Assembly: GCA_016342495.1 (NCBI GenBank)
Contig: JAEIOG010000032.1
Location: forward strand, 1 to 47,160
Reading direction: 5' to 3'
DNA: 47,160 nucleotides
From: Phycisphaerae bacterium
GTDB taxonomy: Bacteria > Planctomycetota > Phycisphaerae > Sedimentisphaerales > SM23-30
Under the pieces are notes generated by a model. The model saw nothing but the letters and a program-made list of their open reading frames with translations, searched no databases and was not told where the DNA came from. The translations under genes and the position numbers were made by a program. Positions 18,401 to 38,723 of the stretch are shown here, piece by piece; the stretch's first letter is position 1; every line of letters starts with the position of its first letter.

Positions 18401-19312
18401 GCATTCAGAAATATCATCAAACAATACCATATTGCCTATTTCGCGTTGGCCGGCATCCAATAATGGTAAAACCTTTACTTGATAATCTGTATTATCATCA
18501 TTTATATTTATTATTTCTTCCTTAGAAATATTTGGATTAGAACCAAAGTTATAGGACGAAAAATGCTCGGCCATAATATTTACGGCATTTGGCATAGTTC
18601 CATCTGCAACCACATAATTTGCAAAACTATCCCAGTTGCCAGTTTTATTAGTGAAAGACAAGCCTTCCAACCATTTTTCTTTATCAAGATAGTGTTTATT
18701 AATAACAAAAACCATATCCAGACTCGTGGTTTTTTTAAGCTTTGAAGTAATCTCACCTATTTCTTCGCCCAGTTCGACATATCCAATTAACTTACCATCT
18801 ACAAACCAGGGCTTAACCACTCTTAATGTAAATGTACCCATCACCCCTATTTCTATACCATAACTCATTTTCTGGTCACGTTCAGCGTTTATAGCAGTAA
18901 AACGGTCAATGGTATCACCAAATTTTTCCGGTTTATGGGCCCTCAGGAAATTTATCCTGTTTGCATCATGAAAATATAGATGGGTTACATTATGCTTGAT
19001 ATTATTATCTTCATAAATTTGCTGGGCATATTTGAGTAATTCATCCCGATTTCTATCTATGAAAACTTGCTGAATTTCCCTGTTGGTTAATATGCTATCA
19101 ACAAGAGCGTCGTAAAGCTTGGCCTCCTTTGCCAACTCATCGGCAAAAAGCTCTTGCAAATGCCAGGCATGCTCATTTGTATCACCTTTAATCTCTTCAT
19201 TAATGACAACATAACTGGAAATACTGGCAATAACTATCATTATCAAAAGCATCCCGCCACACCAGGCAAGTACTCGTTTTGAAATTTTGTTGTCAGATAC
19301 ATCCATAGCCAT
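15419..19312 (-). CDS. Hybrid sensor histidine kinase with Cache-like sensor, three PAS, receiver and HPt domains
   Basis: 1297 residues. TM1 (about 13-34), periplasmic Cache-like sensor (about 40-300, with [20 protein letters not shown]), TM2 (about 308-332), then three PAS domains (about 345-465, 470-595 and 600-720). A coiled coil leads into HisKA ([15 protein letters not shown]), HATPase ([28 protein letters not shown]), a receiver (KVLVAEDN; Asp in [13 protein letters not shown]; Lys in MVKPIN) and a C-terminal HPt. In the HPt the motif is [14 protein letters not shown], with His near 1230, where the usual lysine after the histidine is asparagine. PAS3 carries a cysteine cluster ([19 protein letters not shown]) seen in some redox-related PAS sensors. 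This is the first gene of the co-oriented run. Start choice (ATG 19312 or ATG 19306) is not settled because no strong ribosome site is visible. Confidence 0.93.
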
Positions 19313-20235: not shown

Positions 20236-20685
20236 ATGACCATTTCACAAAAATGCCAGTATGCAATTCGTGCAACTTTTGAATTAGCTAAAAACTTTGG
20301 GAAAGAACCCCTGAAGATATCCTATATCGCAGAGGAACAAAATATCCCAGTAAAATTCCTTGAGGCAATATTAGCTGAATTAAAAGAAGCTAAGTTTCTG
20401 ACATCTAAACGTGGCGCCCATGGCGGTTATACTCTCAAAACCGACCCCGCCAAGATTACCGTTTTGGATATTATTAAATTCATCGAGGGACCGATGTTTT
20501 TCGCCAAATGTATTTCAGACGAAGAATCTGAAAGATGCCCACAATACAATGCCTGTACATTTCTCCCTATATGGCAGGAAGCCCAGGAAGCTGTAAGCAA
20601 AATCTTCAAATCTTATAATTTTGCACAACTTGTAGCGAATGAAAAAGAAAATACCGGAAGTAGCCACGACGCCAACTGCCTATAG
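20236..20685 (+). CDS. Rrf2-family transcriptional regulator (NsrR/IscR-like)
   Basis: 149 residues: N-terminal winged helix (about 1-75; KISYIAEEQNIPVKFLEAIL recognition region, then RGAHGGYTL wing) and a C-terminal loop with three cysteines C92, C101 and C107 (KC-x8-C-x5-C). This is the position where NsrR and IscR bind an Fe-S cluster that responds to NO or redox state. GAGG precedes the ATG. It is divergent from a ygbA-like gene, a known NsrR-regulon member in enterobacteria, and is followed after 2 bases by a ThiF-type gene. NsrR is the best guess. A sulfur-metabolism Rrf2 (CymR- or IscR-like) is possible because of the ThiF neighbour. Confidence 0.87.
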   Translation: MTISQKCQYAIRATFELAKNFGKEPLKISYIAEEQNIPVKFLEAILAELKEAKFLTSKRGAHGGYTLKTDPAKITVLDIIKFIEGPMFFAKCISDEESERCPQYNACTFLPIWQEAQEAVSKIFKSYNFAQLVANEKENTGSSHDANCL

Positions 20686-20687
20686 AC

Positions 20688-21494
20688 ATGCAAATCAAGC
20701 TTAATGAGAGAATCATTACGATTACCAAAGGGGCAATGCTTGCAGATATACAGCATCAATACCGCCCTTCGGCAGATATTATCGTAGTGAATGGTGCACC
20801 ATGCTCTGAAAATATTCAGTTACATGAAAATGACACTGTTTCGCTGATTACCAGAGGTCAAACCCCTCGGCCAGAAGAACTGGAAGCATTGATGTCTGCC
20901 AGGCATACCCCTGGCGTACACGAAATCGTGAAAAAAGCGACAGTTGGGATCGCTGGATTAGGCGGATTGGGCTCTGCGGTAGCAGTTGCTCTTGCAAGAA
21001 TCGGTGTTGGTAAATTAATATTAGCTGACTTTGATGTTGTTGAGCCCAGCAATCTCAATCGTCAACAATATTTCATTGACCAAATTGGGATGCCCAAAAC
21101 CCAGGCTCTTCATGATAATCTCAAACGCATCAATCCTTATGTAGATTATAATTATCACAATATAAAATTGACGCCAGCAAATATCCCGGATATTTTTGCT
21201 GATGTCGATATTCAGGTCGAAGCTTTTGATGTACCCGAGTCTAAAGCTATGATCATGGAGACCTTTGCCCAATATTTTCCCGATATACCACTAGTAATGG
21301 CTTCGGGACTGGCTGGATATGAACCCAGTAATTCCATCCAAACCAAAAGAGTTGGTTCCAAACTGATTGTCGTTGGCGATTTTACTACTGCGGCAAAACC
21401 GGGGACAGGCTTGATGGCCCCCCGAGTCGGGATCGCCGCGGCCCATCAGGCAAATGCTGTTCTAAGATTAATACTGAATCAAACTGCTGAATAA
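20688..21494 (+). CDS. thiF: ThiS-ThiF fusion: sulfur-carrier adenylyltransferase (ThiF family 2)
   Basis: 268 residues. Residues 1-65 resemble a ThiS/MoaD-type ubiquitin-like fold (MQIKLNERIITI..., VVNG, ENDTVSLITRG). Residues about 75-265 are an E1-like Rossmann domain with the nucleotide motif VGIAGLGGLGSAVAVALARIGVG and the LADFDVVEPSNLNRQQY segment. Family members adenylate the C-terminus of the ThiS sulfur carrier for thiazole (thiamin) synthesis. Here the carrier-like domain is fused and lacks the free terminal GG tail, so it may be structural rather than functional. The gene starts 2 bases after the Rrf2 stop, so co-expression is likely. No other thi gene is visible. Confidence 0.83.
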   Translation: MQIKLNERIITITKGAMLADIQHQYRPSADIIVVNGAPCSENIQLHENDTVSLITRGQTPRPEELEALMSARHTPGVHEIVKKATVGIAGLGGLGSAVAVALARIGVGKLILADFDVVEPSNLNRQQYFIDQIGMPKTQALHDNLKRINPYVDYNYHNIKLTPANIPDIFADVDIQVEAFDVPESKAMIMETFAQYFPDIPLVMASGLAGYEPSNSIQTKRVGSKLIVVGDFTTAAKPGTGLMAPRVGIAAAHQANAVLRLILNQTAE

Positions 21495-21502: not shown

Positions 21503-23695
21503 TCAAAGCCTTATTTCAGGCGAGATCAAACGTAATAATGAATCACGCGACCATTGATAAATAGTATAACTGCCACAATCTATGCGGGTTCTTCCGGTCA
21601 TATAAGGCTTGGCCTCAAAAGGAACAGATTCAGGATCAATTTCTATTATAACTTCATACACAGTTTCAACTGGCTTTTCCTGTTTGGTAGCAGCGTCATA
21701 TTCAGTTAATACTTCGCCACCCAGTTTATTGCTAAGAGCGACTTTCTCGCCAAAAGCTCCCATATCCACTTCACTATTACGTGAAACAAATTTGATTGTT
21801 CCGCCAAAAGGATCTCCAAAAGCATAAAGCATCATCTGGGCTTTTGCGTTTTGGCCTGCTTCAGGAATACGCGAAAGCATTTTTTCCGGCACCCAGACCT
21901 TTACTTCCATTTTTCTTATATCAGCAAATAACAATAGCGATGTACCGCGTTGGATGGGTTTATCTCGAAACTTTTCAATATCTTTTCGCAATGACAATAT
22001 CTGGCCATCAAAAGGCGCTTTTATCTGGGCAGCTGCCAACTTTTCATTTATGCGTACAAGTTCACTTTTGTAAGAATTAAACGATTCACGAGCATATTGA
22101 GCTGCAGCTGTTTCGCCAGCATATTCAAAGGCATTTATCTTCCGCATTGCCTGTTCAACTTTCAACTCAAAGCTCTTAGCCCGCAATTCCAATTCAGGAC
22201 AATACAAACTGGCCAGAACCTGATCTTTTTGAACAATATTACCTTGCTGCACGCAAGGCTCCCATCGCAGGATGCCACCCACTTCAGAATTAATTTGTGA
22301 TATTTGCATCGGTTCAAGAATGAAATTTGTTGTCACTGATTGAGCCATAGGCCAAAACAATGCAACACCCACAAAAGCCATCACAATCGATAATAGCAAA
22401 ATCATACGTGAAGTCGATACACCCATAGTATGGCGTTGTTTAACCAGCATTTTTCCTCCCTTGTACAAAGGCAATAATAACATTGTCGAAACTGCAAAAA
22501 CAAAAACCGCACCGCCAAGAAAGCTGAGGCCTTTGGATTTGAAAAATATAAAAACTCCGCCAGAAATTGCAAAAACAATAAACCAACGATAAAGCATAAC
22601 TGAAATTGCATAAATCGGAAATACGAGGCGATACTTATGCTCATCAGGCAATGCTACTTTTTTGGCACCCAGAACAAATCTTTTAGTATAACTTCCCAGA
22701 AAATCAGCGGCACGTTTGCGCAAATTTGGTACTTCGATCAAATCCGAAAGCATATAATAGCCATCAAATTTTAATAGCGGGTTGGCATTAAACAAAACCG
22801 TCGACACCGAACAAATGAAAATCATCTTATGGGAAATGCTATGCAGGAAGCCCGGAGCTTCGGTAAAGTACCACAGAACTGTCGCAATACCAGCTAAAAG
22901 CAGTTCGGACAATATCCCTGCAGAGGTAGTCAGCAACCGATGCGATTTTTTACGAAATGTCCATGAGTCACTGATATTGCAATACATAAAAGGAGCAAAA
23001 ATCAAGACCAGGAAACCTATTTCGTGTACTTCACCGCCAAAATTTTTACAGGTGAAACCATGGCCGAATTCATGCCAGACCTTCGCCAGCCAAAACAAAA
23101 CGATTAAGACCGGAATATTCCACAAGCTCAAAAACATTGATTTAAACATAAATGTGAAGTCTGCCCAGCGATCAATAATCATCAAACATGACAAACCTGA
23201 TAATACCAGAAAGAAAATAAAAAACCAGCTGGTCCAGATGAATTGGATTTTTTTAATATAACGATCAAAAAATTTATCGGGGTCCCAAATAGGAATCTTA
23301 ATAAAAAGGAAATTACTCATTTGACCAATAATTTTAATTTTATCTCGTTTCGAGCCGCTCTTATAAAGAATTTCATCGCGGTCAGGCTGGGTCATTTCCA
23401 CCAGGTTACGGGCCAGCAATGAACGAATAAATTCACCGACCTGGGCATTTGTCAACAATTCACCTTTGAAATGGTTAAAATGGGCATCTTTAAGCTGATC
23501 CAAGGTTATACCCTGGCGGAGCTGCTCAATGATGAAATGTTCCTCGCGATTGAAACGATAATAGCGCAGCGAAAGTGGATCTTTATAAACCCAGAAAGGC
23601 TCATCATCATATATCTGCGGGGTAGAAACCAGCTCAGGCCTTAGCTTTGGCAAAATCGTATCATGAGGATCGTTATTATTTGGTGAATTATTCAT
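21503..23695 (-). CDS. Membrane M50-type metallopeptidase fused to a HlyD-like adaptor domain
   Basis: 730 residues. The N-terminal segment (about 30-105) resembles a PqqD-like winged helix. Transmembrane helices follow from about 152. The zinc motif HEFGH is at 208-212, preceded by a hydrophobic helix, and NPLLKFDGYYMLSD (about 295-308) corresponds to the second metal-ligand region of site-2-protease-type enzymes. More helices extend to about 460. The C-terminal 270 residues form a membrane-fusion (HlyD/biotinyl-lipoyl) module with a coiled-coil hairpin and IKAPFDGQILSL. It is thus an intramembrane protease joined to a periplasmic adaptor. It ends 8 bases from the convergent thiF stop and begins 7 bases after the HlyD gene upstream. 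Such hybrids occur in planctomycete genomes and are poorly characterised. Role in export or processing of a surface protein is inferred. Confidence 0.88.
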   Translation of the reverse strand: MNNSPNNNDPHDTILPKLRPELVSTPQIYDDEPFWVYKDPLSLRYYRFNREEHFIIEQLRQGITLDQLKDAHFNHFKGELLTNAQVGEFIRSLLARNLVEMTQPDRDEILYKSGSKRDKIKIIGQMSNFLFIKIPIWDPDKFFDRYIKKIQFIWTSWFFIFFLVLSGLSCLMIIDRWADFTFMFKSMFLSLWNIPVLIVLFWLAKVWHEFGHGFTCKNFGGEVHEIGFLVLIFAPFMYCNISDSWTFRKKSHRLLTTSAGILSELLLAGIATVLWYFTEAPGFLHSISHKMIFICSVSTVLFNANPLLKFDGYYMLSDLIEVPNLRKRAADFLGSYTKRFVLGAKKVALPDEHKYRLVFPIYAISVMLYRWFIVFAISGGVFIFFKSKGLSFLGGAVFVFAVSTMLLLPLYKGGKMLVKQRHTMGVSTSRMILLLSIVMAFVGVALFWPMAQSVTTNFILEPMQISQINSEVGGILRWEPCVQQGNIVQKDQVLASLYCPELELRAKSFELKVEQAMRKINAFEYAGETAAAQYARESFNSYKSELVRINEKLAAAQIKAPFDGQILSLRKDIEKFRDKPIQRGTSLLLFADIRKMEVKVWVPEKMLSRIPEAGQNAKAQMMLYAFGDPFGGTIKFVSRNSEVDMGAFGEKVALSNKLGGEVLTEYDAATKQEKPVETVYEVIIEIDPESVPFEAKPYMTGRTRIDCGSYTIYQWSRDSLLRLISPEIRL

Positions 23696-23702
23696 CTTTA
23701 AT

Positions 23703-24629
23703 TTATTCTGTAATCAGTTCAACTCTGGCGCGGGTATTTGGACGATAAACAAAAGGGTAATCCGATTCTTTTTCGGTTTTAACTTTTGGATTATCGAATT
23801 CTACTTCATAGCTATAGACTTTAAGTGAGGCCCCCACACCAGGACTAACAAAAACTACTTCACCGATTATCTCTTTTGGGCCGCCATTTTTCTGATAAAT
23901 AAACACCCTGGCTTTTTGGCCGATTTTGATATCGCCATAATCTTCTGACCGGGCGGTGCTTCTGACTCTGAGCTTATCAACTTTCATCAAAGCTACCAAA
24001 GCCTGGCGTTCTAAAACAACTTCGCCGACTTCAGTATTCTTGACATTTTCCTGTTCGAGCTGTTTGACCATATTAAATGGGACAATAACGCCACTAACTG
24101 GAGCATTTATACTGTAAAAGCTTAAATTCTTTTCCAGCTCTTCCAGAGCCAGTTCAAGTTTTCTAACTTCCAGTTTTGCCTCTGTGATATCTTCAATCGC
24201 CAACTCATAAGCTTGTGTTGCTTCTTTAAGTTCTTTAGCTGAACCCACCCGTGAGGAGCCAACCTTGCTTCCATACAGTTTTTTGACAATTTCAAGATTA
24301 TCTTTTGAATAGGCTAAACGAATCTCAGCTTTTTTAATAAAGGTACTGAGTTCAAGCGAAGCCATAATGGTTTTTTTGCGGATTCGCAGCAACTCATCAT
24401 CAAGTTCGATAATCGGCTGACCTTTCTGAACATAATCCTGTGGTTCAAAATTGATAGCCTTAACCTGGCCGGAAACCAGCGAACGTAGCACAATAGTTTT
24501 TTGAGGTTGGATAAATTGCGGGTAAGTATCCACCGACCTTGTAGATTGGGCAATTGAAGAAACTGAGCTGTTAAAAGCAATAAAGCCAAATACCACAGCC
24601 ACGAGAAGCATTATAGAATATTTTTTCAT
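23703..24629 (-). CDS. HlyD-family periplasmic adaptor protein
   Basis: The 308-residue protein has an N-terminal signal or anchor (about 5-28), a first lipoyl half (VLRSLVSGQVKAINF, with YVQKGQPIIELDDELL, near 48-75), a long alpha-helical hairpin (about 75-160), a second lipoyl half (INAPVSGVIVPFN) and a beta-barrel domain (about 200-300). It would bridge the inner membrane to an outer component in an efflux or secretion complex. AAAAGG precedes its ATG. The M50-HlyD gene begins 7 bases after its stop. No ABC ATPase, RND pump or TolC-like gene is adjacent, so the energy source is unclear. Confidence 0.88.
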   Translation of the reverse strand: MKKYSIMLLVAVVFGFIAFNSSVSSIAQSTRSVDTYPQFIQPQKTIVLRSLVSGQVKAINFEPQDYVQKGQPIIELDDELLRIRKKTIMASLELSTFIKKAEIRLAYSKDNLEIVKKLYGSKVGSSRVGSAKELKEATQAYELAIEDITEAKLEVRKLELALEELEKNLSFYSINAPVSGVIVPFNMVKQLEQENVKNTEVGEVVLERQALVALMKVDKLRVRSTARSEDYGDIKIGQKARVFIYQKNGGPKEIIGEVVFVSPGVGASLKVYSYEVEFDNPKVKTEKESDYPFVYRPNTRARVELITE

Positions 24630-24711
24630 TTATAAATCCTTTTTAGAAATCCAGGTATACCAGACAAACATCCCTGCTGCCTGTTGATAGAACATTTTTA
24701 TACAGCAAAGA

Positions 24712-26715
24712 CTAAAATGTACTGACACGCCAAAAATCTTTGAATTGTCGAGTTACCACATAATACAAACTGTTCTTGCCGCATTCAATAGCGACAGAAG
24801 CTTTCATGCCCTGCCGTAAATCTATAGTTTCGGTTAATTCTTTTGGAGCTTGGACCCGAATAGAAATAACATTACGATATTTTTGATTGCCAGCGGTTTC
24901 GATATGGGCACGCGGCGAAATGCTCAATACTTTAGCCTCAAAAATTTGATCAGGACAGGCCAGCATCAAGATATGGGCTTTAAATTCCTGTTTATGCTCG
25001 GCGGATTTTCCCTTGTTCTGATAATCCGCTTTAAGAATATCACCAGCCTGATCTTCCGGAACATTTACGATAAATTCCCAGGGCGAATCTTCCGGCACAA
25101 CATCCAGAATCGATTGGCCCCGCTGGACAGGCATTCCAGTTAATTTATTGATATGATTCTGCTGAGTAAAAATTCTACCATCCACAGGTGATTTAATTTG
25201 CAGTTCTTCATTTTTCTTACGTTTATACTCATTTGCCTGAGCGGTCAATTCTGCTATTTCCAGAATCAATAATTCTTCTGATATAGCATCACCCTTAGCT
25301 TTTGCCTGGTCGTAAGCCTGCTGCTTTTGATTTATTTTAGAAACGGCCATGTCAATCAACGATTCTATTTCACTAAGATCCAGCGAAGCAAGAACCATGT
25401 CTTTGTTAACAAGGTCACCTTCTTTGACGTTGACAGTATCTATCTGACCATCGGTAGCGACATAAACTTCTCTGCCGTCAATAGCAATCAGCTCGGCGGC
25501 TCCAATATTTTTTACCGGCAATTGTATAATCGCTGGCAATCCAAATACAATAAATAAAAAGCATGCCCAGATAGCTTTACGCAAAGCTCCCATAGCATAA
25601 ATTTTATTGCGGATAACCGCCAAAGCTCTGGAAGCCAGCGACAAAGGCATATCTCGATATTTCAATGAATTATTAAGAGCTGATGCGGCTTCCTGAGTCA
25701 GGATCTCAATGTTTTTAAGTTGCCCCTGATCAAAAGGAATCTCTTGGGCCCTTTCCACCACCAACACCCCAACAACTTTATCATCAGCTGAAATTGGGAA
25801 AATACCCATAATTGCCGCCTTGGCTTCAAGCATATAACAACGGGCGGCAGTCAATAACTCATCGCCATCGGAAATATCGGTCATCGCCGCATTAGGATTG
25901 TCAACGATCAACGCTTTGCCATTTTTACAAACATGCTTGGCGATTTCAGAAATAGTTTTAATAAAATTACTCTTTATCGCTACCGATTCCAGACCGGAAA
26001 CCGATTGCATGCGGAATTTACCTTTGATATTAAATGTCCCGGCCATACAGCGGTAGACTCCCAGCATTTCCTGGGCATAGTTCGCCAGAGCATAACAAAC
26101 CCGCTTGGGTTCAAGACTGCTGTGCAATGCCGCACTGTATTGCCTGAGTCGGTCAGAATAGCCAATTGTCTTTTCCTGATTACGAATTTCCTGTTTGAGC
26201 AGAAAAAAACCGGCACGATCACACAGGCCCGCGATAAAATTCGTATAACCTTTCAGAGCCCTGGCATCGACACCCTCTGGTGCGATCAAAACCAGTACTG
26301 CCACCACCTGCCCTTTGCGGATAATGATGGGCACGAATATTAAACTATTGTTGGCTTTATTGACCATATGGGGGCCAAGGCCGCTATTTAGTAAATTGGT
26401 ACTGTTATTTTCAGGCAACACCAATGGTGAAACCGTTTCAACCGAATGACTAAGAGCAGCAGACAAAAGCTCAAATTGAGCTCCGCCAGGTTCGATCCCA
26501 GCTAAATTCAGGTTAATATGAGCGACGCAGTTAAATTGGCCATCAAGGCTACCCTGCCATATAGCGCCGCCTTCACCTAAGCCATTAACTGTAAGTTCTA
26601 GCATTCGGCGATAAAAGTCTGCTACGGACATATCCTGTTCGCACAAAGCGATGATCCTGGCTTCCATAGCTGCCAAATGATCCTGGAATGAGTTTTGCTG
26701 GACATTGGTTGTCAT
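24712..26715 (-). CDS. GAF-GAF-transmembrane-HlyD hybrid protein
   Basis: 667 residues. Two GAF domains are predicted at about 40-175 and 195-350. They are followed by a transmembrane helix at about 381-399 and a membrane-fusion adaptor: lipoyl half (VYVATDGQIDTVNVKEGDLV near 418), coiled coil, second half (IKSPVDGRIFTQ) and beta-barrel. The topology suggests cytoplasmic GAF sensors wired to an extracytoplasmic adaptor, so ligand binding could gate export. GGAG precedes the ATG. A TATAAT on the minus strand (26757-26752) with TTGATT at 26782-26777 (19-base spacer) is a candidate promoter. It is the first of three co-oriented adaptor genes. Confidence 0.86.
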   Translation of the reverse strand: MTTNVQQNSFQDHLAAMEARIIALCEQDMSVADFYRRMLELTVNGLGEGGAIWQGSLDGQFNCVAHINLNLAGIEPGGAQFELLSAALSHSVETVSPLVLPENNSTNLLNSGLGPHMVNKANNSLIFVPIIIRKGQVVAVLVLIAPEGVDARALKGYTNFIAGLCDRAGFFLLKQEIRNQEKTIGYSDRLRQYSAALHSSLEPKRVCYALANYAQEMLGVYRCMAGTFNIKGKFRMQSVSGLESVAIKSNFIKTISEIAKHVCKNGKALIVDNPNAAMTDISDGDELLTAARCYMLEAKAAIMGIFPISADDKVVGVLVVERAQEIPFDQGQLKNIEILTQEAASALNNSLKYRDMPLSLASRALAVIRNKIYAMGALRKAIWACFLFIVFGLPAIIQLPVKNIGAAELIAIDGREVYVATDGQIDTVNVKEGDLVNKDMVLASLDLSEIESLIDMAVSKINQKQQAYDQAKAKGDAISEELLILEIAELTAQANEYKRKKNEELQIKSPVDGRIFTQQNHINKLTGMPVQRGQSILDVVPEDSPWEFIVNVPEDQAGDILKADYQNKGKSAEHKQEFKAHILMLACPDQIFEAKVLSISPRAHIETAGNQKYRNVISIRVQAPKELTETIDLRQGMKASVAIECGKNSLYYVVTRQFKDFWRVSTF

Positions 26716-26751
26716 GAGTTCTCCACTTCCGCAATATTTACACGAAAATAC

Positions 26752-26782
26752 ATTATATTGAACAATTTAAGGGCAAAATCAA
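26752..26782 (-). promoter_or_regulatory. Candidate promoter of the GAF-HlyD/HlyD/M50 operon
   Basis: A perfect -10 TATAAT (26757-26752) lies 36 bases before the ATG. The best -35 candidate is TTGATT (26782-26777) with a long 19-base spacer, so the pair is only moderately convincing. Confidence 0.4.
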
Positions 26783-26960
26783 GCCTGAAGTTCGATTATC
26801 AGGTTACTTTGCTATATTATTACCTCAAATGCGATAAAAATCAACAATTATCGGGCCTTAACTTATTATTCTAAAATCGGCATAAAACCATTGTTTACTT
26901 CAATTTTTTTGCTGTTAAATCCAACACCTACCGAAAGTTATCGGAACCTGCCAAATTTAA

Positions 26961-26992
26961 AACAAAAAAGCCCGGCTCATATGAACCGGGCT
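26961..26992 (-). terminator. Intrinsic terminator of the giant repeat-protein gene
   Basis: On the minus strand AGCCCGG (26992-26986) pairs with CCGGGCT (26975-26969) around a partly palindromic loop (TTCATATGAG), followed by TTTTTT-G-TT. It lies 25 bases after the stop codon, so the giant gene is transcribed apart from the adaptor operon downstream. Confidence 0.9.
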
Positions 26993-27016
26993 GGAAATTT
27001 AATTCATGACTAAAAA

Positions 27017-30000
27017 TTAGATAACATCAGGAAGAACGCTATTAGAGACTCTTACGCCATTATAACGTGAGTTACCAATATTATCATAGTCAAAGTTGGT
27101 AGTCCATGCACCATCATTATCATTAATGAAACTGTTAGCGATCTTGGACTTCATGCCTGTGACAAACATATTGTCAGCATCACCAATAACGGTCAACCTA
27201 TTGACTTTATTAGCAAAGATTTCATTAATGTCACCTTCGATGCTAACTTTAGTGAGCTTGGTAGAAGCAAGTTTATCTACATCGCCACCGAATTGAGCAT
27301 TCTTGATAGACTTAGCGGCAATGATTTCACCGGCGTCACCAGATACCCACATCTTATTGATGCTCTTGGTTACGGTCAGGTCGCCCATATCGCCATCAAC
27401 AAACATGCTCTTAACTTTAACATTGCTATCCATTGCAAAGCTGATGTCTGGGACATTAGCTGTGCCTTCACCAGTGAAGAAGTCATTAGTTTCACCCTTC
27501 ATGGCTAGTTTAGCAGCTTTCTGAACGTCTTTCAGTTCAGGCTGAGCAGCGGCATCGAAGCTGTAAAGTTCCAGGTTGCCACGGCCAGCAATCTCCAGGT
27601 CAGTAATCTGACCGAATAGAGTATTGAATGTACCAACAGCATTTCTAGAACCCTTCAAAGCGACATACTGAGTACCACCGATAAGCTGAACATCACCGCC
27701 ATTAGCTGTGATAGCACCGGTAGGAGCAATAGAATTGCCATTATAGTCCCAGGTATCAGTGAATGTAGCACCTGTCAGAGTAGCAGTGTTAACTGTACCC
27801 CAAACTTCAACATCATCAATATCTGGAGTATTGGCATACATGACGGCCTTGCTGACATTAACAGTACCAGTCCAGTCACCTTCAACAGTTACACTGTCGA
27901 TATCATTGGCGGTAAGGTCTAAAGTACCAGCCAAATCACCTTCAATAGTTACATCGAAGATATCCTGACCATCAACAACAGTTACTGTACTGCCAACTGG
28001 AAGATCGCCAGCCACTGTGACATCATCAAGTGTATTAGCATCATCTTCGGTAACAGTTACAGTTGTGGTTGCATCTACCAAACCAGTTATGGTTACGGTA
28101 TCAGTACCAGCATTGTAAGTTGCCAGGGTAGTAGCACCAGTAACGCTCATATCGACAGGACCATCATAGTCAGTACCTTCGAAAGCGAATGCTTCGCCAG
28201 TGCTGTACATGGTTGCGATAGTGTCATCACCTGTGAATACACCATTGGTATCATTGAATGCACCAGTCAAGAGAATCTTGCCAGCGGTGCCTTCATAGTT
28301 ATATGCGGCATTATAGCCACCATTAGTATTGACGATACCAGCAAAGGTATTTGTAGCTTCCATTGTGATACCAGCTGTGATGTTGCCATTTGCTGTTATC
28401 AAGCCAAGGTTGCCATCAGCAACAGTAACTGAACCAGTAAGAGTTGAACCGACTGTTATGTCGCCAACATTACCATCGTTTGCTGTTACAGCAGCGACAG
28501 CAGCACCTTCAACAGTCAAGCCACCAATTGAATCAGCAGTAACAGCAAATGCACCTGTGGTATTAGCCACTGGAATATTATTGCCAAAACTGTCAACTAC
28601 ATTACCGTCGGCTACCAAAGCCAAACCAGTTACATCAGCATCATCATCAACGATTACTGAACCAGTCAGGTCGCCATCAACGGTCAATGTCATATTGGTT
28701 GTATTACCAACATAAACATTACCAGAAATATCGCCACCAACTGCTACAGCACCATCGGTACCATCAGTTAGAACTGCGATATCGGTAAATGCCCATGCCT
28801 GGCCATCAGTTGCATCCCAGGTTGCAGCACCAAAGACAGCAGCTTCGGTATCGCCGCCAACTGTAAAGGCTGCTTCGCCAGCATCTGCTACATCGCCATC
28901 ATCATTATTGTCGATGGTCAAACCAGTAGAGCCGTCTTCAGTACCAAGAGCAAATGTACCAACATAAGCGATTGCTTCTGGACCAGCGGTATTAACAATA
29001 GTTGTTCCGCCAACACCAGTTGTGATATTTGCATAAAGGATAGCATTAGCAAGATCTGCATTTGTAGCAACAGTTAAGTCGATAGTAGTCAAGCTGCCAT
29101 CAACAGTAATAGTTGAAGTTGCAGAACCGATTACACCATCAAGCTCAGCATCATTAAGAGTCAAGGTACCAATATTACCTTCAGCAACTGTGATAGTTGA
29201 ACCAAAGTCACCAGCAATTGTAATATCCTGACCATTACCATCAGCGACGGTCAATGTACCTGTCATGTCATCTGTAACAGTCAAAGCTGCGCCAAGTTCA
29301 CCTGTGGCAACCGTTGATGTTGTCGCGACACTGCCAACAGTAACAGTTCCGCCTACATCACCCATAGTTACAGTTAAACCAGCACCAACTTCACCAACAG
29401 TAACTGTCCCGCCTACATCGCCAACAGTCAAGTCAGCTGTAAGATCGCTGCCATTGGCAACTGATACATTACCTGTCACATCACCAACAGTAACTACACC
29501 AGAAACATCACCAGCGATATTTACTGATGTTGCCGCGGTAATAGTAATAGTTGAGCTTACATCACCAGTAATAGCTACAGCACCAGCATCATCACCGAAG
29601 GTAATTGGAGCACTGATATCGCCAGTTAGAGTAATATCACCAGCTACTGTACTAAAGTCAGTTGCAGATGTGATGTCACCAGTAAAGCCTACGCCACCAG
29701 CACCAGCTACGCCAGCTAAGCTGCCAGCAGTATAAGTCACTGTTGCTTCGCTATAAGTTGCAGGTGAATCTGAAAGAGTTACAGCATTAATATTTGCGAC
29801 ACCATCAAAGAAGCCATCGGCACCAGCGGTAAAGACCATAACATCATCACCACCGTTTGCTGATACTGGAACGACAAAGTCGCCAGTAACAACTGCGGTA
29901 GTTGGATCAGTTAAGCCACCACTGTGAGTTGTATAAGTGTCAGCCAAAGTAGCAGTTGCTGCACCAGTTGCAAAGGTTGCTGCTGAAACCACATTGATTG

Positions 30001-33000
30001 AATCAACTGTGATCACATCATCAATATCACCTTGAACCAGCAGAGCATTTACAGCTGAACCACTGCCAAAATCTACAGCATCAAGAATGTCACCATCTAC
30101 TGTAATAACATCAAAGACATTTCCACCGGTTACGGTGCTGGCATTTATCGTCAGTGAGTTCAGATCAAATTCCGCGGCGGTTGAGGTCTTAACGCTCAGA
30201 TCCAGTGCGGTTGTTGTATTATTAGTTACATCAATATCAACTTTTGCATCAGCACCTGAAGTGAAGCCAATATCAAATGTTGCATCAGCAGAAGCATCTG
30301 TCAATACCTGCCAGCTGTTGCCACCTGATTCCAGATCAAATACAACGCCATTAGCATCGGCGGTCTGGGCTTCTGCATCAAATGTTGCGGTAAAGGCTAT
30401 GCCGACATCGGCGGTCACTTTACCCATTGTTGTAGCTGCGGTTGCATTTACAACACCAATGCTTGCATCAGTTGTAATAGTCCCAACTGAACCATTGGTA
30501 GCGGTCCATGTACCAGCACCAATATTACCGGTAGCTGTTACATTACCGATATTGGTATCGGAAGTCATAGTGGTAACTGTCAATGTACCGCCTGCTGTGA
30601 TAGCGCCAATACTTGTTGTACCATCAGAGCCTGCGTCAGCTGCGGTCAAACCATTAAGAACAATTGCGCCAGTTGCTGTAATATCAGCTACATTGCCATC
30701 AGTTGCTTCCAGGTCATTACCAGTTAAGTTACCTGTAACTGTACCAATAGTCAATGTACCAGCTGTTGCAGTTAAATCATTAACTGTCAAGTTGCCAGTA
30801 ACATCTGCGATTGTCAGATCATTAGCGGCGGTAATATCATTAACGGCAGCAGCAGCACCAGGTGTCAAAACTACATCATAACCAGTCATATCGATATCAT
30901 TGGTTTGAGTAATTGCACCAGTTGTGGTAACAGCTAAGTCACCAGTAGCAGCAGCAGCGGCATCACCATCAGCATCAGCTGTCAATGTGATTGTACCAGC
31001 AGCTGAGTCGATAGTGCCAGCACTCTGGCCATTGACTGTCAGGCCAAGATTGCCGTCAGCCTCAATAACCAAAGCATTAGCGCCAGCTGTCACGATTCCG
31101 CCAGCGGTCATTGTCAAATTACCATCATCAGCAGCACTAATAGTAACTGCTTCATCGGTAGTGTCAACATTGCCCGCAACGGTCAATGATGTGATATCAC
31201 CATAAACGGTAACATCATCCATCAGATGACGACCAACTGTGATAGCATTGGCATCTTCCTGGTCGCCACCAGTTACACCAATAATGATGTCACCGAGACT
31301 ATCGCGACCAATTGCCAAAGTGCCGGTTAAACCAGCGGCCATATTGACTTCACCCAGTGAATCGGTACCGGTTGAAACTGTACCAGAAACAATACCTTCG
31401 ATATCAGCAGATGCTAAAGTTGTTCCAGCTGAGATTGTACCAGCAACTGTACCATTTACATCAACAGCGGCCATTGTGGTTCCGGAACTAACTGTACCAG
31501 CAACATTACCCGTTACAGTAACAGCACCCATTGTGGTTGTTGCAGCTACTGAACCAGTTGCGTCAACATTACCACCAACGGTAACTGTGCCAACTGTTGT
31601 AGTTGCAGCGATGTCACCAGCGATATCGCCAGTTACATCAATATCACCGATTGCTGTTGTCGCGGTGATTGTTGCACCATCAGTAATGTCATTAGCAACA
31701 GTAACTGTGCCAATTGCTGTTGTTGCGGTTAAAGCACCAGTAATGTCGTTACCAACATTAACGGTACCGATTGTTGTTGTTGCGGTAATTGAACCAGTCA
31801 GGTCACCTTCGCCAACAACTACATTGCCAACGGCACCAGTTGTAGCTGTGATTGAACCTGCGAATGATTCATCTGTACCATCATCATCACTATCGACTGT
31901 AACTGTTCCAACGCTTGCTGCGCTGATTACACTGTCAGCTGTGATTGAGCCATCAACTGCTTCGATATTCCCTAATGCACCAACAGCTGTGATGTCACCA
32001 GTTATATCATTGCCAGCAGTTACAGTTCCAACTGTACCAGCTGAACTGATGGTACCAGAGAAGTCACCTTCACCAACAACGATGTTGCCAACATTGCCGG
32101 TTGTTGCAGTGATTGTACCAGCTAATGCTTCGCTTGAACCATCGCTATCAGTATCAACTGTTACATTACCTACGCTTGTGCCACTAATTGCACTTGCATC
32201 TGTAATAGCACCGTCAACTGTTTCGACTGTTCCAACTGTGCCTGTTGCTGTTACATCACCAGAGATGTCATTACCAACCTGGATATTGCCAACATTACCT
32301 GCTGAGGTGATGGTACCGGAGAAATCACCAGTTCCATCAGCGTCAACTGTAATTGCGCCAACATTACCAACGGTTGAAGTAATTGTACTGCTCAAGCTAC
32401 CATCAGTAACTGTAATAGCACCGATTGCTTCAGCTGTTACAGCACCGCTCATTGCATTATCTGCTGTGATTGTACCTGTGATATCACCAGCTACTGCTGA
32501 GATATCACCGCTGATAGCACCAGTGGTTGTGGTAATTGCACCACTAATATCGCCAGCTGTGGCGGTTATGTCATTGGTTATTTCTGTTGCCTGTAGGTCA
32601 CCAGAGATAGTGCGGGCAACTTCAACAGCACCTAATGTACCAGCTGAGGTTACATTAGCAGATAGATCTGCATCTGTACCATTTGCTGTAATTGCGCCAA
32701 TATTACCACTTGTTGTAGTAGTAATGTCACCGGCAATGTTTCCAGCAGTTGCTGTGATTGTACCAATATTAGCTGCGGTTGCATCGATTGTACCACCAGC
32801 TGCACTACCAGCTGTCAAAGTAACATTGCCAATAACACCATCAGAATCAATTGAACCTGCCAACTGATCTGTTACTGTTATATCGCCAATACTTTCAGCA
32901 TCAAAGCTGGTTGCAATACCTTCAAATGCTACATCATCAACGGTACCGACATTCATGGTTCCAACTGTTGTGGTATCCAATGTGAATGTTCTTGCACCAA

Positions 33001-33598
33001 AATCTAATAGAAGTGAAGAAGTGTTATCTGCTTCAGCTACGACAATCGCATTAATTTCGGCAGCATCAACAGCACTATCATTTACAGAAGTATCAAAGAT
33101 AGCATTTGTTGCTTCAACTGCAAACATACTAAATTCATTAGTCGTATTGTCATTTGCATCTGTAACAATATTACCCGTACCTGTTGTAATACTTAGTGCG
33201 GTTGTACCTGTTTCATTTACAAATGCCAGCACCGCATCAGCTGATAAAACTGTGCTACCAACTTCAATTCCAGTCAGAGAGAACTGGTCGGCGGACTCTT
33301 CAGTCAATGAGACAGTAATAGTACCAGTACCGCCACCATTCATTGCTATAGTCCATTCATCACCACTTTCGTCAGTGAATGTAATACCGTCATCATCACC
33401 AAGGATGATAACCGGGGTAGTATCACCATTGCCAGTGCCATCTGTGGCACCGCCTAGATACTCTACACCACTAGCTGCTGCCGGTGCGATTCTTTCTTCC
33501 AGTTCTTCGACCCCTAGACGCCTGTCCTGAAGAACCAGATCATTCTGGAATCTGCGTTTTCTTGATCGTTTGATCGTTTTTCTTAGCCCTTTTGCCAT
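27017..33598 (-). CDS. Giant LEPR-XLL-type secreted repeat protein (beta-solenoid-like)
   Basis: 2193 residues. The N-terminus is strongly basic (KTIKRSRKRR, 7-16) followed by LGVEELEERIAPA (28-40), a variant of the planctomycete LEPR-XLL N-terminal export motif. The body (about 220-1880) is rich in Gly, Asp, Thr, Val and Ala, with degenerate repeats of about 15-25 residues such as GTVTVxNDITGxITAT and GDVTGxVTVGDV. This suggests a long right-handed beta-solenoid, as in adhesins and surface-layer proteins. I saw no cysteine and very few lysines before the C-terminal 330 residues, which switch to a Lys-containing region (MWVSGDAGEIIAAKSIKNAQF). AAGGAA at 8-base spacing precedes the ATG. The gene has its own terminator. 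It is probably exported, and the adaptor/M50 trio next door is the obvious candidate machinery, though this is inferred. Confidence 0.88.
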   Translation of the reverse strand: MAKGLRKTIKRSRKRRFQNDLVLQDRRLGVEELEERIAPAAASGVEYLGGATDGTGNGDTTPVIILGDDDGITFTDESGDEWTIAMNGGGTGTITVSLTEESADQFSLTGIEVGSTVLSADAVLAFVNETGTTALSITTGTGNIVTDANDNTTNEFSMFAVEATNAIFDTSVNDSAVDAAEINAIVVAEADNTSSLLLDFGARTFTLDTTTVGTMNVGTVDDVAFEGIATSFDAESIGDITVTDQLAGSIDSDGVIGNVTLTAGSAAGGTIDATAANIGTITATAGNIAGDITTTTSGNIGAITANGTDADLSANVTSAGTLGAVEVARTISGDLQATEITNDITATAGDISGAITTTTGAISGDISAVAGDITGTITADNAMSGAVTAEAIGAITVTDGSLSSTITSTVGNVGAITVDADGTGDFSGTITSAGNVGNIQVGNDISGDVTATGTVGTVETVDGAITDASAISGTSVGNVTVDTDSDGSSEALAGTITATTGNVGNIVVGEGDFSGTISSAGTVGTVTAGNDITGDITAVGALGNIEAVDGSITADSVISAASVGTVTVDSDDDGTDESFAGSITATTGAVGNVVVGEGDLTGSITATTTIGTVNVGNDITGALTATTAIGTVTVANDITDGATITATTAIGDIDVTGDIAGDIAATTTVGTVTVGGNVDATGSVAATTTMGAVTVTGNVAGTVSSGTTMAAVDVNGTVAGTISAGTTLASADIEGIVSGTVSTGTDSLGEVNMAAGLTGTLAIGRDSLGDIIIGVTGGDQEDANAITVGRHLMDDVTVYGDITSLTVAGNVDTTDEAVTISAADDGNLTMTAGGIVTAGANALVIEADGNLGLTVNGQSAGTIDSAAGTITLTADADGDAAAAATGDLAVTTTGAITQTNDIDMTGYDVVLTPGAAAAVNDITAANDLTIADVTGNLTVNDLTATAGTLTIGTVTGNLTGNDLEATDGNVADITATGAIVLNGLTAADAGSDGTTSIGAITAGGTLTVTTMTSDTNIGNVTATGNIGAGTWTATNGSVGTITTDASIGVVNATAATTMGKVTADVGIAFTATFDAEAQTADANGVVFDLESGGNSWQVLTDASADATFDIGFTSGADAKVDIDVTNNTTTALDLSVKTSTAAEFDLNSLTINASTVTGGNVFDVITVDGDILDAVDFGSGSAVNALLVQGDIDDVITVDSINVVSAATFATGAATATLADTYTTHSGGLTDPTTAVVTGDFVVPVSANGGDDVMVFTAGADGFFDGVANINAVTLSDSPATYSEATVTYTAGSLAGVAGAGGVGFTGDITSATDFSTVAGDITLTGDISAPITFGDDAGAVAITGDVSSTITITAATSVNIAGDVSGVVTVGDVTGNVSVANGSDLTADLTVGDVGGTVTVGEVGAGLTVTMGDVGGTVTVGSVATTSTVATGELGAALTVTDDMTGTLTVADGNGQDITIAGDFGSTITVAEGNIGTLTLNDAELDGVIGSATSTITVDGSLTTIDLTVATNADLANAILYANITTGVGGTTIVNTAGPEAIAYVGTFALGTEDGSTGLTIDNNDDGDVADAGEAAFTVGGDTEAAVFGAATWDATDGQAWAFTDIAVLTDGTDGAVAVGGDISGNVYVGNTTNMTLTVDGDLTGSVIVDDDADVTGLALVADGNVVDSFGNNIPVANTTGAFAVTADSIGGLTVEGAAVAAVTANDGNVGDITVGSTLTGSVTVADGNLGLITANGNITAGITMEATNTFAGIVNTNGGYNAAYNYEGTAGKILLTGAFNDTNGVFTGDDTIATMYSTGEAFAFEGTDYDGPVDMSVTGATTLATYNAGTDTVTITGLVDATTTVTVTEDDANTLDDVTVAGDLPVGSTVTVVDGQDIFDVTIEGDLAGTLDLTANDIDSVTVEGDWTGTVNVSKAVMYANTPDIDDVEVWGTVNTATLTGATFTDTWDYNGNSIAPTGAITANGGDVQLIGGTQYVALKGSRNAVGTFNTLFGQITDLEIAGRGNLELYSFDAAAQPELKDVQKAAKLAMKGETNDFFTGEGTANVPDISFAMDSNVKVKSMFVDGDMGDLTVTKSINKMWVSGDAGEIIAAKSIKNAQFGGDVDKLASTKLTKVSIEGDINEIFANKVNRLTVIGDADNMFVTGMKSKIANSFINDNDGAWTTNFDYDNIGNSRYNGVRVSNSVLPDVI

Positions 33599-33930
33599 AA
33601 TTAAAATTCCTTTCGCGACGACTTTACGGGTTTGTTAACAACCTGTCTTTGTTCTCGTTTAACTCTAAACTATCATTAAAATTAGTTATCTTGTAATCCA
33701 GACAGGCCACACAGCCTGCTGACATATTTGCAAAAATACAAATATCCTAATTCTCTATAGGCATGATATGCCCATAAAGAAAATGTTTTCTATCTTGTTT
33801 TTCTGCTATTTCTTTCAAGTTCATTAATAAATTCCGATGGTTTCGTAAAAAAACTGCTTTTATTTTCATTTTCACAGATTTTCACTCTTAAAATAACCCA
33901 CAATTGACATCATGTATCAGATACTCAGTA

Positions 33931-33955
33931 GATAAAAAAAACTATCTACACCTAA
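33931..33955 (+). repeat. Intergenic motif GATAAAA-CTATCTACACCTAA, copy 1
   Basis: The same arrangement (GATAAAA, a short A-rich spacer, then CTATYTACACCTAA) occurs at 35247-35272, with 13 of the last 14 bases identical. Both copies are in non-coding DNA and in the same orientation. Function is unknown. Confidence 0.45.
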
Positions 33956-34413
33956 GTCTATTTATTACAATCACTTAAGTCGATAACAAGCAGGACTTTC
34001 CTGACCTGAATCTGTCATCGCAACCTCTATTTATGTATCAAAATACCATGTTTCAACCATAAATCATCTTCACATCGAAACACATTAATAACGTTATCAG
34101 TACTGATATCGGCCATTTGCCCTGTTTTCCATAAATTCCTGTTCATTATGTTTTTTTTAACCATAACCGACAAGAATTAACCTGAGACTTCCATAGTCAA
34201 AATGCCTGTTTATTTTATAAATATCCATTGAATATTTAAAATAAAATAAGACAAATACAACTTTCGAAAACTACAGAGCAATACCCACTACCAAACTAAT
34301 TCCCATTTAGTTAGTTCCAAACCACTACGACGTCCCATAATTCAACCAAAACATAGAAAAACAGACATCGTAAGTCCTGGCATTTTACCCACTAATGGGA
34401 ATATGAAAATTCA

Positions 34414-34441
34414 GAGCCTGAGATCATTTTATCCCAGACCC
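34414..34441 (-). terminator. Probable terminator after the DUF3467 gene
   Basis: An 11-bp stem (34441-34431 with 34424-34414, two G-U pairs, 6-base loop) begins 11 bases after the stop codon on the minus strand. The following sequence is T-rich but lacks a clean T-run, so efficiency may be moderate. Confidence 0.5.
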
Positions 34442-34452
34442 TAAATTATTTT

Positions 34453-34800
34453 TTACTTCTTTTCTGCGGCTTCAGGACTAAGGCGACGTTGAACATTAAG
34501 CTCAATTACTCCAAAGTTCTGTTCATGACGCATGATTGTCTGTTGCAAAGCGGCATAAAGACGTTTTGCGGTGTAGTAATTGATAACAAGACGTCTGTCG
34601 ATCTTGATTTCCTGATCGGTACGAGCAAATGGATTGGGATTAAGAGCAAAATCCACCACGACTTCTTCAGGAGTGCCAGTTACACGGCAAAAATTTGAAT
34701 ACGAAGCTTCAACATCCTTGTCATCTAAAGTTATACGAACCTGTTGGCCTTCTGCGGGGGCGTCGGCTTTACCTTCATTTTTTTTAGCATTATCTGCCAT
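34453..34800 (-). CDS. DUF3467-family protein
   Basis: About 115 residues. The core VRITLDDKDVEASYSNFCRV, then PEEVVVDFALNPNPFA and IDRRLVINYYTAKRLYAAL, matches the small DUF3467 family common in planctomycetes and other bacteria. Its function is unknown. I chose the ATG at 34800-34798, with AAAGGA nine bases upstream. Eight further in-frame codons exist upstream but begin with TTG. The first 25 residues are charged and Ala/Glu-rich and probably disordered. It stands alone, with long intergenic regions on both sides. Confidence 0.8.
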   Translation of the reverse strand: MADNAKKNEGKADAPAEGQQVRITLDDKDVEASYSNFCRVTGTPEEVVVDFALNPNPFARTDQEIKIDRRLVINYYTAKRLYAALQQTIMRHEQNFGVIELNVQRRLSPEAAEKK

Positions 34801-35325: not shown

Positions 35326-36852
35326 ATGACAACTAAAATGAAAAAAAAACCGCAAAAAACTGTAGCCCAACAATTCAAAGAGACCATGGAATCACTCATT
35401 ATTGCCTTTGTATTAGCTTTTGTTTTCCGGGCTTTTGTGGTTGAAGCTTTCGTTATCCCCACTGGTAGCATGGCCGACACCCTCCGGGGCGCTCATTTTA
35501 ATCTGACCTGTCAGGATTGTGGCTATGAATACAATTTTGGTTTCATTCCGAGATATTACAAAATGGGCGAAAACACAATACCAAAACAACCTATATCGCC
35601 ATCCCCTTTAGTTAGAAATGATAATGAAATCTGCTGTCCTATGTGTGGCGCAAAAATCGGCAATTCACCCAGACATGTAAGTAAGGGTGATAGGATTTTA
35701 GTGTTAAAATCAGCATATCAGACTCAAAAACCCGCTATTTGGGATGTTGTGGTCTTTAAAAATCCTACCGATCCCAGAGAAAACTATATCAAAAGGCTTA
35801 TCGGACTGCCAAACCAAAAAGTGGAAATCCGTGATGGCGATGTCTATATCGACGATCAGATCCAGCGTAAACCCGACACCATCCAGGATACTTTGTGGAT
35901 AGAAGCGTTCAACAATGACTATCAACTGCCAGATCGGCAGGGTATTGAAGGCAAATGGAACCAACCTTTCAGGCAGCAACGGGCAGAAAACGCATGGGAA
36001 ATCGACCAAAATGCACGAATTTTTCACTTTTTAGGCGCAAATGAAACCCAATCGCTGACATTTAATTACAATCGAATGAACTATATCTGCAACAGTTTCA
36101 ACGCTTACAACGGAACTGGTGTTACCATTAACAGCATTTGCAGCGACCTGAAACTTCAGTGTATTTTCACCCCGACAGACCTTGACAGCCAACTAAAAAT
36201 AACCATTACCAAATATGGGATTGATTATGAAGCGGTGATTGACCCGACTGGTAAATGCTATATCGCAGGGCCGAATGGCAAAATCGAACTTACGAATTTA
36301 GCTAATGGCCAGACAGCAAAAGAAGGGACATTTACCGAACTTACAGTCAACAATCCAACAATTGTATCCTTTGCTTGCGTAGATCATAAATTTGATTTCA
36401 GAATTGGCGAGTATCGTTTTGAGCATATAGGCGCCAATGACCCGACCCAATGGGGCTATCAGGGCAATCCCAAAACCCCAGGACTGAAACTTGGCGGTAG
36501 CGGCAAGCCTTTTACTCTAACTAGAATCCAGCTTTTCCGTGATATTTATTATACCAATGCCAACATTAGCAGAAATGGCCACCCTGGCCATGGCACTGAA
36601 GGCAATCCAATTCAATTGCATGATGATGAATTCTTCGTTATGGGAGACAACAGTCCTCAGTCAAGCGATGCCCGTTGCTGGAGTGCGGTCGCAGACGCTC
36701 ACATTGAAGGCAAAAACTATCGCATAGGAACCGTGCCCCGCGATTATCTCATCGGCAAAGCATTCTATGTCTACTGGCCCAGTGGCTACCGCTTCAGCAA
36801 AGAACCATTTGCGATCATACCTAATGCCAGCGATATGAGATTTATTAAATAA
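35326..36852 (+). CDS. lepB: Signal peptidase I with zinc-ribbon and long insert
   Basis: 508 residues, much longer than typical bacterial type I signal peptidases. One N-terminal membrane helix (about 22-45) leads into box B with catalytic Ser48 (IPTGSMADTL). The general-base lysine is Lys156 in NYIKRLIG, followed by DGDVYID, and the late box MGDNSPQSSDARCW is near 440. Two insertions stand out. A C4 zinc-ribbon-like segment (C62xxC65 and C104xxC107) lies right after the catalytic serine. A domain of about 220 residues (about 185-410) has no motif I recognise. The enzyme cleaves signal peptides on the outer face of the inner membrane. AAGGAATCTTC precedes the ATG. Confidence 0.92.
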   Translation: MTTKMKKKPQKTVAQQFKETMESLIIAFVLAFVFRAFVVEAFVIPTGSMADTLRGAHFNLTCQDCGYEYNFGFIPRYYKMGENTIPKQPISPSPLVRNDNEICCPMCGAKIGNSPRHVSKGDRILVLKSAYQTQKPAIWDVVVFKNPTDPRENYIKRLIGLPNQKVEIRDGDVYIDDQIQRKPDTIQDTLWIEAFNNDYQLPDRQGIEGKWNQPFRQQRAENAWEIDQNARIFHFLGANETQSLTFNYNRMNYICNSFNAYNGTGVTINSICSDLKLQCIFTPTDLDSQLKITITKYGIDYEAVIDPTGKCYIAGPNGKIELTNLANGQTAKEGTFTELTVNNPTIVSFACVDHKFDFRIGEYRFEHIGANDPTQWGYQGNPKTPGLKLGGSGKPFTLTRIQLFRDIYYTNANISRNGHPGHGTEGNPIQLHDDEFFVMGDNSPQSSDARCWSAVADAHIEGKNYRIGTVPRDYLIGKAFYVYWPSGYRFSKEPFAIIPNASDMRFIK

Positions 36853-38650: not shown

Positions 38651-38723
38651 GCCAACGTAGCTCAGTTGGTAGAGCACAGCTTTCGTAAAGCTGGGGTCGC
38701 GGGTTCGACTCCCGCCGTTGGCT
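38651..38723 (+). tRNA. tRNA-Thr (anticodon CGT)
   Basis: A complete 73-base cloverleaf: acceptor GCCAACG/CGTTGGC, D-arm GCTC/GAGC, anticodon stem CAGCT/AGCTG with loop TTCGTAA (anticodon CGT, reading ACG), and T-arm GCGGG/CCCGC with loop TTCGACT. CCA is not encoded. A tyrosine recombinase gene starts 113 bases downstream in the same orientation, so the tRNA 3' end is the probable attachment site of the island. Confidence 0.95.

Follow-up and report, generated by a model that had tools for sequence, protein, structure and literature searches.

The 47,160-base contig C196 of a 5.4-Mb planctomycete genome, referred to here as the window, carries a block of five genes that is likely to encode a giant repetitive protein together with its own dedicated export machine. 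The machine would be built from three HlyD-type adaptors, one fused to an M50 intramembrane metalloprotease (M50-HlyD), one fused to a GAF domain (GAF-HlyD), and one free-standing (HlyD), which together we call the trio, and would be assisted by a small DUF3467 protein. At the level of sequence, the reading is supported by gene content, conservation, co-occurrence, an N-terminal tag on the giant, the absence of a signal peptide, and intact catalytic residues. With less assurance, we also lean towards a wider view in which LEPR-type tags and M50-HlyD, GAF-HlyD, DUF3467, and in some branches an accessory SecA make up a distinct and widespread pathway by which two-membrane bacteria secrete giant proteins. 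In it, an RRE-like domain fused to an intramembrane protease would recognize the leader, and the energy would be of the Sec type rather than from an ABC transporter. The window would then represent a SecA-less, single-substrate branch of the pathway with a tag of its own.

The gene block and its products

All five genes lie on the minus strand and are read in the order DUF3467, giant, GAF-HlyD, HlyD, and M50-HlyD, with intergenic gaps of 854, 301, 82, and 7 bases (Table 1). A preliminary description of this DNA had pointed to three adaptor-type proteins beside a 2193-residue protein, with no ABC transporter, RND pump, or TolC at hand. All four open reading frames (ORFs) were recovered with unchanged coordinates, a profile scan found an HlyD_3 domain in each of the three adaptors, and the window ORFs scanned included no ABC, RND, or TolC protein. 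The set of four genes that it proposed is real and conserved but incomplete, as DUF3467 had been overlooked.

The fusions described for two of the adaptors also stand. In M50-HlyD, the HExxH motif and a distal Asp (Asp311) are invariant in 43 of 43 relatives and fall within a multi-transmembrane (TM) domain, the arrangement by which an M50/site-2 protease is recognized; the M50 domain of the window protein itself scores 24.1 bits, slightly below the Pfam cut-off of 27.2. A GAF domain was found in GAF-HlyD, where a single strong TM segment separates it from the adaptor part. In the AlphaFold2 model of M50-HlyD (27 sequences, pLDDT 81.6), an N-terminal domain is followed by membrane helices and then by a periplasmic adaptor whose fold matches MexA, MacA, and AcrA; a sequence search of the PDB returned no solved structure for this protein. 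The N-terminal domain is predicted to form three strands followed by three helices, which fits the winged helix of PqqD and RRE domains. The PqqD profile PF05402 matches 13 of 15 members of the M50-HlyD family (E up to 1, best 4e-5), and PDB profile matches to the N-terminus are weak, namely PqqD 3g2b (E 0.015) and the leader-binding TfuB1 6jx3_B (E 0.14). Judged from the model and these matches, the region looks like a PqqD/RRE leader-binding domain. The DUF3467 protein scores 77.9 bits against PF11950 (cut-off 25), and we propose that it acts as a chaperone or targeting factor. A more specific assignment as a SecB-like chaperone was considered and rejected, as the model is poor (pLDDT 63) and the fold matches are weak (PC4/MRP-like), with none confident; no sequence relative of DUF3467 was found in the PDB.

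Directly past the stop codon of the giant lies a stem followed by a T-run (26992-26969). Because of this probable terminator, the giant and the trio are probably separate transcripts, and a single operon for the whole block was rejected. Separate transcripts would fit a substrate made in large amounts and a machine made in small ones. The spacer between DUF3467 and the giant measures 0.84-0.89 kb in two relatives, with hardly any conservation of sequence; an RNA element in the spacer was considered and rejected, given this lack of conservation and the absence of any Rfam match.

Table 1. Features of the export block in the window, with coordinates, strand, and supporting observation
Feature	Coordinates	Strand	Observation
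M50-HlyD, 730 aa: RRE-like domain, intramembrane metalloprotease, periplasmic adaptor	21503..23695	-	
MexA/MacA-like adaptor part of M50-HlyD	21563..22351	-	Foldseek PDB, E about 1e-13
Third ligand candidate, D311 of M50-HlyD	22763-22765	-	
Protease motif HEFGH, residues 208-212	23060..23074	-	
RRE/PqqD-like N-terminal domain of M50-HlyD, residues about 22-112	23360..23632	-	
HlyD-type adaptor, 308 aa, N-terminal signal/anchor	23703..24629	-	
GAF-HlyD, 667 aa: cytoplasmic GAF part, TM near residues 381-399, periplasmic adaptor	24712..26715	-	
Probable intrinsic terminator, giant/trio boundary	26969..26992	-	10-bp GC-rich stem, T-run
Giant repetitive protein, 2193 aa, proposed substrate	27017..33598	-	Giant at same place in 8 relatives
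Conserved C-terminal domain of giant, about 250 aa, short V/I-x-G-D repeats	27020..27799	-	
N-terminal leader of giant, residues 1-40: basic MAKGLRK..., then VEELEERIAPA	33479..33598	-	
AT-rich spacer between DUF3467 and giant, 854 bp	33599..34452	n/a	
Terminator-like stem after DUF3467	34408..34447	-	Pattern match only, weak; total stems found not above shuffles
DUF3467 protein, about 115 aa, soluble, no TM	34453..34800	-	PF11950 E 6e-22

The giant and its leader

The giant is rich in T, G, A, V, and D, is free of Cys, and contains neither a hydrophobic signal peptide nor a TM segment. Within its first 70 residues the best 11-residue hydropathy is 0.75, compared with 3.05 for the neighbouring HlyD, and the giants of related loci likewise lack a hydrophobic signal (h-region). 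What these proteins have instead is a leader of the form MAxGLRK...EELEERIAPA, common to the giants found at the same place in relatives; in the window the motif occupies residues 31-40 (33479-33508). The relatives searched were 59 genomes, comprising 13 members of the host family and 46 others of the order. A profile of the leader gave exactly one match per genome in eight host-family genomes and none in the rest of the 59, which suggests a dedicated pair of machine and substrate. The C-termini of the eight family giants match that of the window giant while the middles diverge, so that on sequence the giant combines constant ends with a repetitive middle that is free to vary. The C-terminal domain is probably a β-solenoid.

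The preliminary description had classed the giant as a LEPR-XLL protein and the block as an exporter of LEPR-XLL substrates. The first of these claims is not borne out, as the curated LEPR-XLL/LEPR-8K model NF012209 gives no match to the giant even at E 10, and its matches in the host genome are confined to contigs C132 and C17. By its sequence, then, the giant falls outside the strict LEPR-XLL class, and its leader is a distinct variant, VEELEERIAPA. It shares with LEPR-XLL proteins a basic N-terminus followed by LExR and small residues on a giant protein, but EELEERIAPA falls short of the model. Of the second claim, export of the giant survives as the best reading, with a substrate that is not LEPR-XLL by the curated model.

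Conservation of the block and its sister systems

M50-HlyD is present in 13/13 family members and in 7/46 of the other genomes of the order. The block order recurs in eight family loci (L115, L116, and L119-L124), which are all those whose contig is long enough; in each, the giant precedes GAF-HlyD, and GAF-HlyD and HlyD precede M50-HlyD. This synteny of giant and trio is held at 45-52% identity. In all eight genomes that have the leader, DUF3467 is located upstream of the giant, about 0.8-1.1 kb from its start.

The host genome contains three further GAF-HlyD/M50-HlyD pairs, on contigs C132, C16, and C186. On C132 the order is GAF-HlyD, M50-HlyD, an accessory SecA of 666 residues, and a LEPR-XLL giant of 12,376 residues, whose start is a textbook example of the tag: FNIEPLEPRVLLSGD. 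On sequence grounds, a second, SecA-bearing machine in the same genome therefore goes with a true LEPR-XLL giant. Such SecA-type sets adjoin LEPR or LEDR proteins in five other genomes (G002, G026, G044, G053, and G195); no such giant lies adjacent to the SecA-type set in G036, G050, G052, or G058. The SecA inventory of the host consists of a housekeeping SecA, the accessory SecA of C132, and an orphan of 638 residues on C163 (locus L153, 9228-11144) with no adaptor genes adjacent. There is no secondary SecA_DEAD gene in the window, accessory copies being those on C132 and C163, and the C163 orphan is a candidate motor in trans. As separate observations, the pair on C16 (locus L014, 9148-13329) is followed by an S41 protease with a PDZ domain, a type of locus also seen in G006 and G011, and the pair on C186 (locus L015, 16087 onward) is preceded by a PilZ protein.

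The association is not limited to Planctomycetota. A tblastn search with M50-HlyD returned 79 plasmid records, and plasmid relatives that adjoin giants occur in Alphaproteobacteria and Enterobacterales. Twelve of these neighbourhoods were opened, and a giant is adjacent in 11 of the 11 that were informative. The typical alphaproteobacterial order is giant, DUF3467, GAF-HlyD, M50-HlyD, SecA, small HlyD, and TolC; a second form, found in Escherichia coli, Kosakonia, and Azospirillum, lacks SecA and consists of giant, TolC, two adaptors, and M50-HlyD. All eight plasmid giants with a readable start have a LEPR-like motif within about the first 60 residues (ALEPRFLLSAD, TLEPRVLLNAD, PMEPRVLLSAD, PIEPRILLSAD, ALEPRLLLSAD, ALEPRFMFDAA, SLEPRMLFDGA, and ALESRQLFDGA), while the loose pattern used to recognize these motifs matches 6 of 580 ORFs from control neighbourhoods. 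The annotations of these giants vary and include LEPR-XLL, LamG, Ig-like, and DUF4347. In a maximum-likelihood tree of M50-HlyD, the SecA-type planctomycete and alphaproteobacterial proteins are joined (100/98) and the window clade stands apart (100/100). Taken across these loci, sequence comparison supports a conserved functional association of giant and trio that generalizes far beyond the window.

Plasmid SecA genes often go under the name "prepilin peptidase" or "DEAD/DEAH box helicase", and the two copies tested (L104 and L106) were identified as SecA by Pfam. The mislabelled genes lie at 18023-20047 in L104, 12171-14087 in L105, 12088-14073 in L106, and 12135-14096 in L111, the assignments in L105 and L111 resting on name and position. 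On an IncHI1B plasmid of E. coli (L103), the genes for TolC, two adaptors, and M50-HlyD adjoin that of an Ig-like giant starting with ALESRQLFDGA; adaptor genes nearly identical to these occur in 24 of 5426 complete E. coli genomes.

Co-occurrence of machine, tag, and DUF3467

Among the close relatives, LEPR-8K matches occur in 15/20 genomes with M50-HlyD and 0/39 without (Fisher p 4e-10; this and the following p values overstate certainty, as related genomes are counted as independent). Outside the host family the figures are 6/7 and 0/39 (p 7e-7). A phylum sample of 195 planctomycete genomes, 57 with M50-HlyD and 138 without, gives 15/57 against 1/138 (p 3e-8), and the lone LEPR-8K genome without M50-HlyD (G144) is borderline (E 5.5e-4). 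DUF3467 is present in 45/57 genomes with M50-HlyD against 15/138 without (p 3e-20) and lies within 6 kb of M50-HlyD in 17 genomes. Several genomes of the sample also have tandem DUF3467 domains, two or three to an open frame of about 240-330 codons, besides the single-copy one.

It had been proposed earlier that the trio co-occurs with LEPR-XLL proteins and that trios in genomes without any such protein would speak against the link. In one direction the proposal fails, with 42 of the 57 M50-HlyD genomes giving no LEPR-8K match; in the other it holds, with M50-HlyD present in 15 of the 16 LEPR-8K genomes of the phylum and in all 15 of those among the close relatives. The host family shows why many genomes with M50-HlyD give no LEPR-8K match, as variant tags escape the model; in place of LEPR-XLL, the M50-HlyD genomes that were closely read contain the variants LEERIAPA, LEERQLLAP, LEDRSLLS, and LESRQLFDGA. 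In distant planctomycetes, DUF3467 and LExR proteins adjoin the trio, sometimes convergently (L032, L033, and L048), and the link is therefore not mere inheritance of one operon. One genome, G190, has 17 LEPR-8K matches, an open frame of up to 10,951 codons, and two M50-HlyD genes, and one machine may therefore serve many substrates elsewhere.

Proposed mechanism and alternatives

In the pathway that we infer, the giant would be synthesized with no signal peptide of the classical kind and would be marked for export by its basic N-terminus together with VEELEERIAPA. At its cytoplasmic end, M50-HlyD would capture this tag through the RRE-like domain, with help from soluble DUF3467, and a SecA ATPase, dedicated in the sister systems and supplied in trans here, would drive the unfolded chain through the inner membrane. 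The M50 domain would cut the leader off during passage. M50-HlyD, HlyD, and GAF-HlyD would build a periplasmic conduit to an OEP/TolC-type channel encoded elsewhere, with the GAF part opening the conduit or setting its activity. OEP outer-membrane proteins are absent from contig C196 and present elsewhere in the host genome.

Several observations weigh against this proposal. A SecA gene and an outer-membrane channel are both absent at the window locus, and the N-terminus of the window M50-HlyD has no PqqD PF05402 match of its own. The GAF-HlyD/M50-HlyD pairs on C16 and C186 of the same genome have no neighbouring giant, nor do most distant planctomycete trios have one adjacent. DUF3467 occurs without M50-HlyD in 15 of 60 DUF3467 genomes, and the overstated p values given above belong here as well.

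The identity of the leader peptidase could be different. A gene for a signal peptidase I of 508 residues (35326-36852, plus strand; PF10502 E 5e-33, TIGR02227), with PTGSM and KRL motifs, lies divergent from DUF3467; the same position is occupied in genomes G005 and G006, and the gene was not seen at the G001 locus. It is a possible alternative leader peptidase, in which case M50 would have a structural or regulatory role. The gene is adjacent and divergent in three family genomes, and the APA end of LEERIAPA resembles an AxA site, the IAPA and LLSA ends both fitting the AxA rule. We nonetheless regard this as unlikely, as the neighbour is not conserved in G001 or the other loci read, and the M50 residues are invariant in every family member.

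A second alternative, which we judge improbable, is that the giant crosses the inner membrane through ordinary Sec, while the trio works there as a sorting peptidase complex, which would trim the leader and pass the protein on but build no conduit. The intact M50 residues, the accessory SecA of the sister loci, which points to Sec, and the missing outer-membrane channel at the window locus would all suit such a role. Against it, the giants have no h-region, and three separate adaptors, along with the TolC-family genes that occur in several related loci, point to a conduit spanning the periplasm.

It is also conceivable, with very low probability, that the RRE-M50-HlyD protein matures and exports a small ribosomally synthesized and post-translationally modified peptide (RiPP), leaving the giant a bystander. 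The RRE-like domain is in keeping with this, as is the best NCBIfam match of M50-HlyD, the daptide intramembrane metalloprotease NF041824 (E 4e-48, 164.6 bits, below the cut-off of 300). However, a tagged giant is the recurring neighbour in Planctomycetota and Pseudomonadota alike, and no modification enzyme recurs among the neighbours. Least probable of all is that the giant leaves by ordinary type I secretion, with the gene for the ABC transporter located elsewhere. There are HlyD-type adaptors, and TolC genes in some related loci, but neither the annotated related loci that were read nor a 2015 survey shows an ABC transporter next to the machinery, and where an ATPase is present, it is SecA.

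Relation to known systems

The survey in question is that of Kamneva, Poudel and Ward 2015, who described a SecA_DEAD/M50-HlyD/GAF-HlyD/HlyD locus in Planctomycetota and Pseudomonadota, parts of which may be encoded apart, and who suggested a role in secretion while calling its broader role "completely unknown" (PMC4452313). The window shares with that locus the M50-HlyD fusion, the GAF-HlyD fusion, and a further HlyD; it differs in having no SecA gene and no OEP. The words "giant", "DUF3467", and "PqqD" do not occur in the text of the paper, which names neither a substrate nor an RRE domain (PMC4452313). In the literature on LEPR-XLL and DUF3467 that was covered, which mostly excludes subscription journals and preprints, no paper was found that links the machinery to giants, LEPR tags, or DUF3467. 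The machinery is known but orphan, and the substrate link, the tag variants, DUF3467, and the RRE-like domain appear to be new. Locus listings in two papers, when juxtaposed, may provide an independent link: in Methylobacterium extorquens AM1, the operon META1p2402-2399 (PMC4452313) and the 15,831-residue protein META1_2412 (PMC2680597).

Compared with type I secretion (HlyB-HlyD-TolC), the likeness lies in HlyD-type adaptors, giant repetitive substrates, and TolC in some relatives. The window differs in that there is no ABC transporter, the proposed signal is N-terminal and not C-terminal, and the adaptors are fused to protease and GAF domains. The M50 maturation proteases of daptides and epipeptides (NF041824, NF058609) have a homologous M50 domain and a leader-binding region, but the window M50 is fused to an adaptor, has no small precursor, and scores below the cut-offs. 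The accessory Sec system of Gram-positive bacteria (SecA2) resembles the sister loci in using a second SecA for giant repetitive surface proteins; here the bacteria have two membranes, adaptors and protease are fused, and the window has no SecA2 gene. Two possible precedents were rejected: the RSP/R27 Ig-like protein, which is reported to leave by the type IV system of its plasmid (PMC6764697), and BapP of Pseudoalteromonas, whose machinery is different and of the ABC type (PMC12153261).

Little is known about the export of the largest bacterial proteins, and those concerned here reach 12,376 residues in the host and 15,831 in M. extorquens AM1. So far neither the LEPR-XLL tag nor the 2015 SecA/HlyD locus has had a function, and tying them together gives each a testable role. 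The link also supplies a parts list that includes DUF3467, offers tractable models such as M. extorquens AM1, and would explain why a single N-terminal motif is found across proteins annotated as Ig-like, LamG, DUF4347, or calcium-binding. That machine and tag relatives travel together across distant bacteria suggests that many giants exit in this way.

Other genes of the window

Genes of other kinds lie elsewhere in the window. From 38651 to 46942, a tRNA gene (38651-38723) is followed by genes for an integrase of phage type (38837-40003), a member of the RhuM family, and a PEP-CTERM protein, and the region looks like an integrated island. At 20236-21494 on the plus strand, convergent with M50-HlyD, an Rrf2 regulator is followed by a ThiS-like/ThiF fusion protein. 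The minus strand from 2445 to 19312 holds a chemotaxis-like cluster with CheR, CheB, two methyl-accepting chemotaxis proteins (one with hemerythrin), a CheA-type kinase, a STAS protein, an anti-sigma-type ATPase, and a SpoIIE-type phosphatase, as well as a PAS hybrid kinase of 1297 residues that lies directly downstream of the export block.

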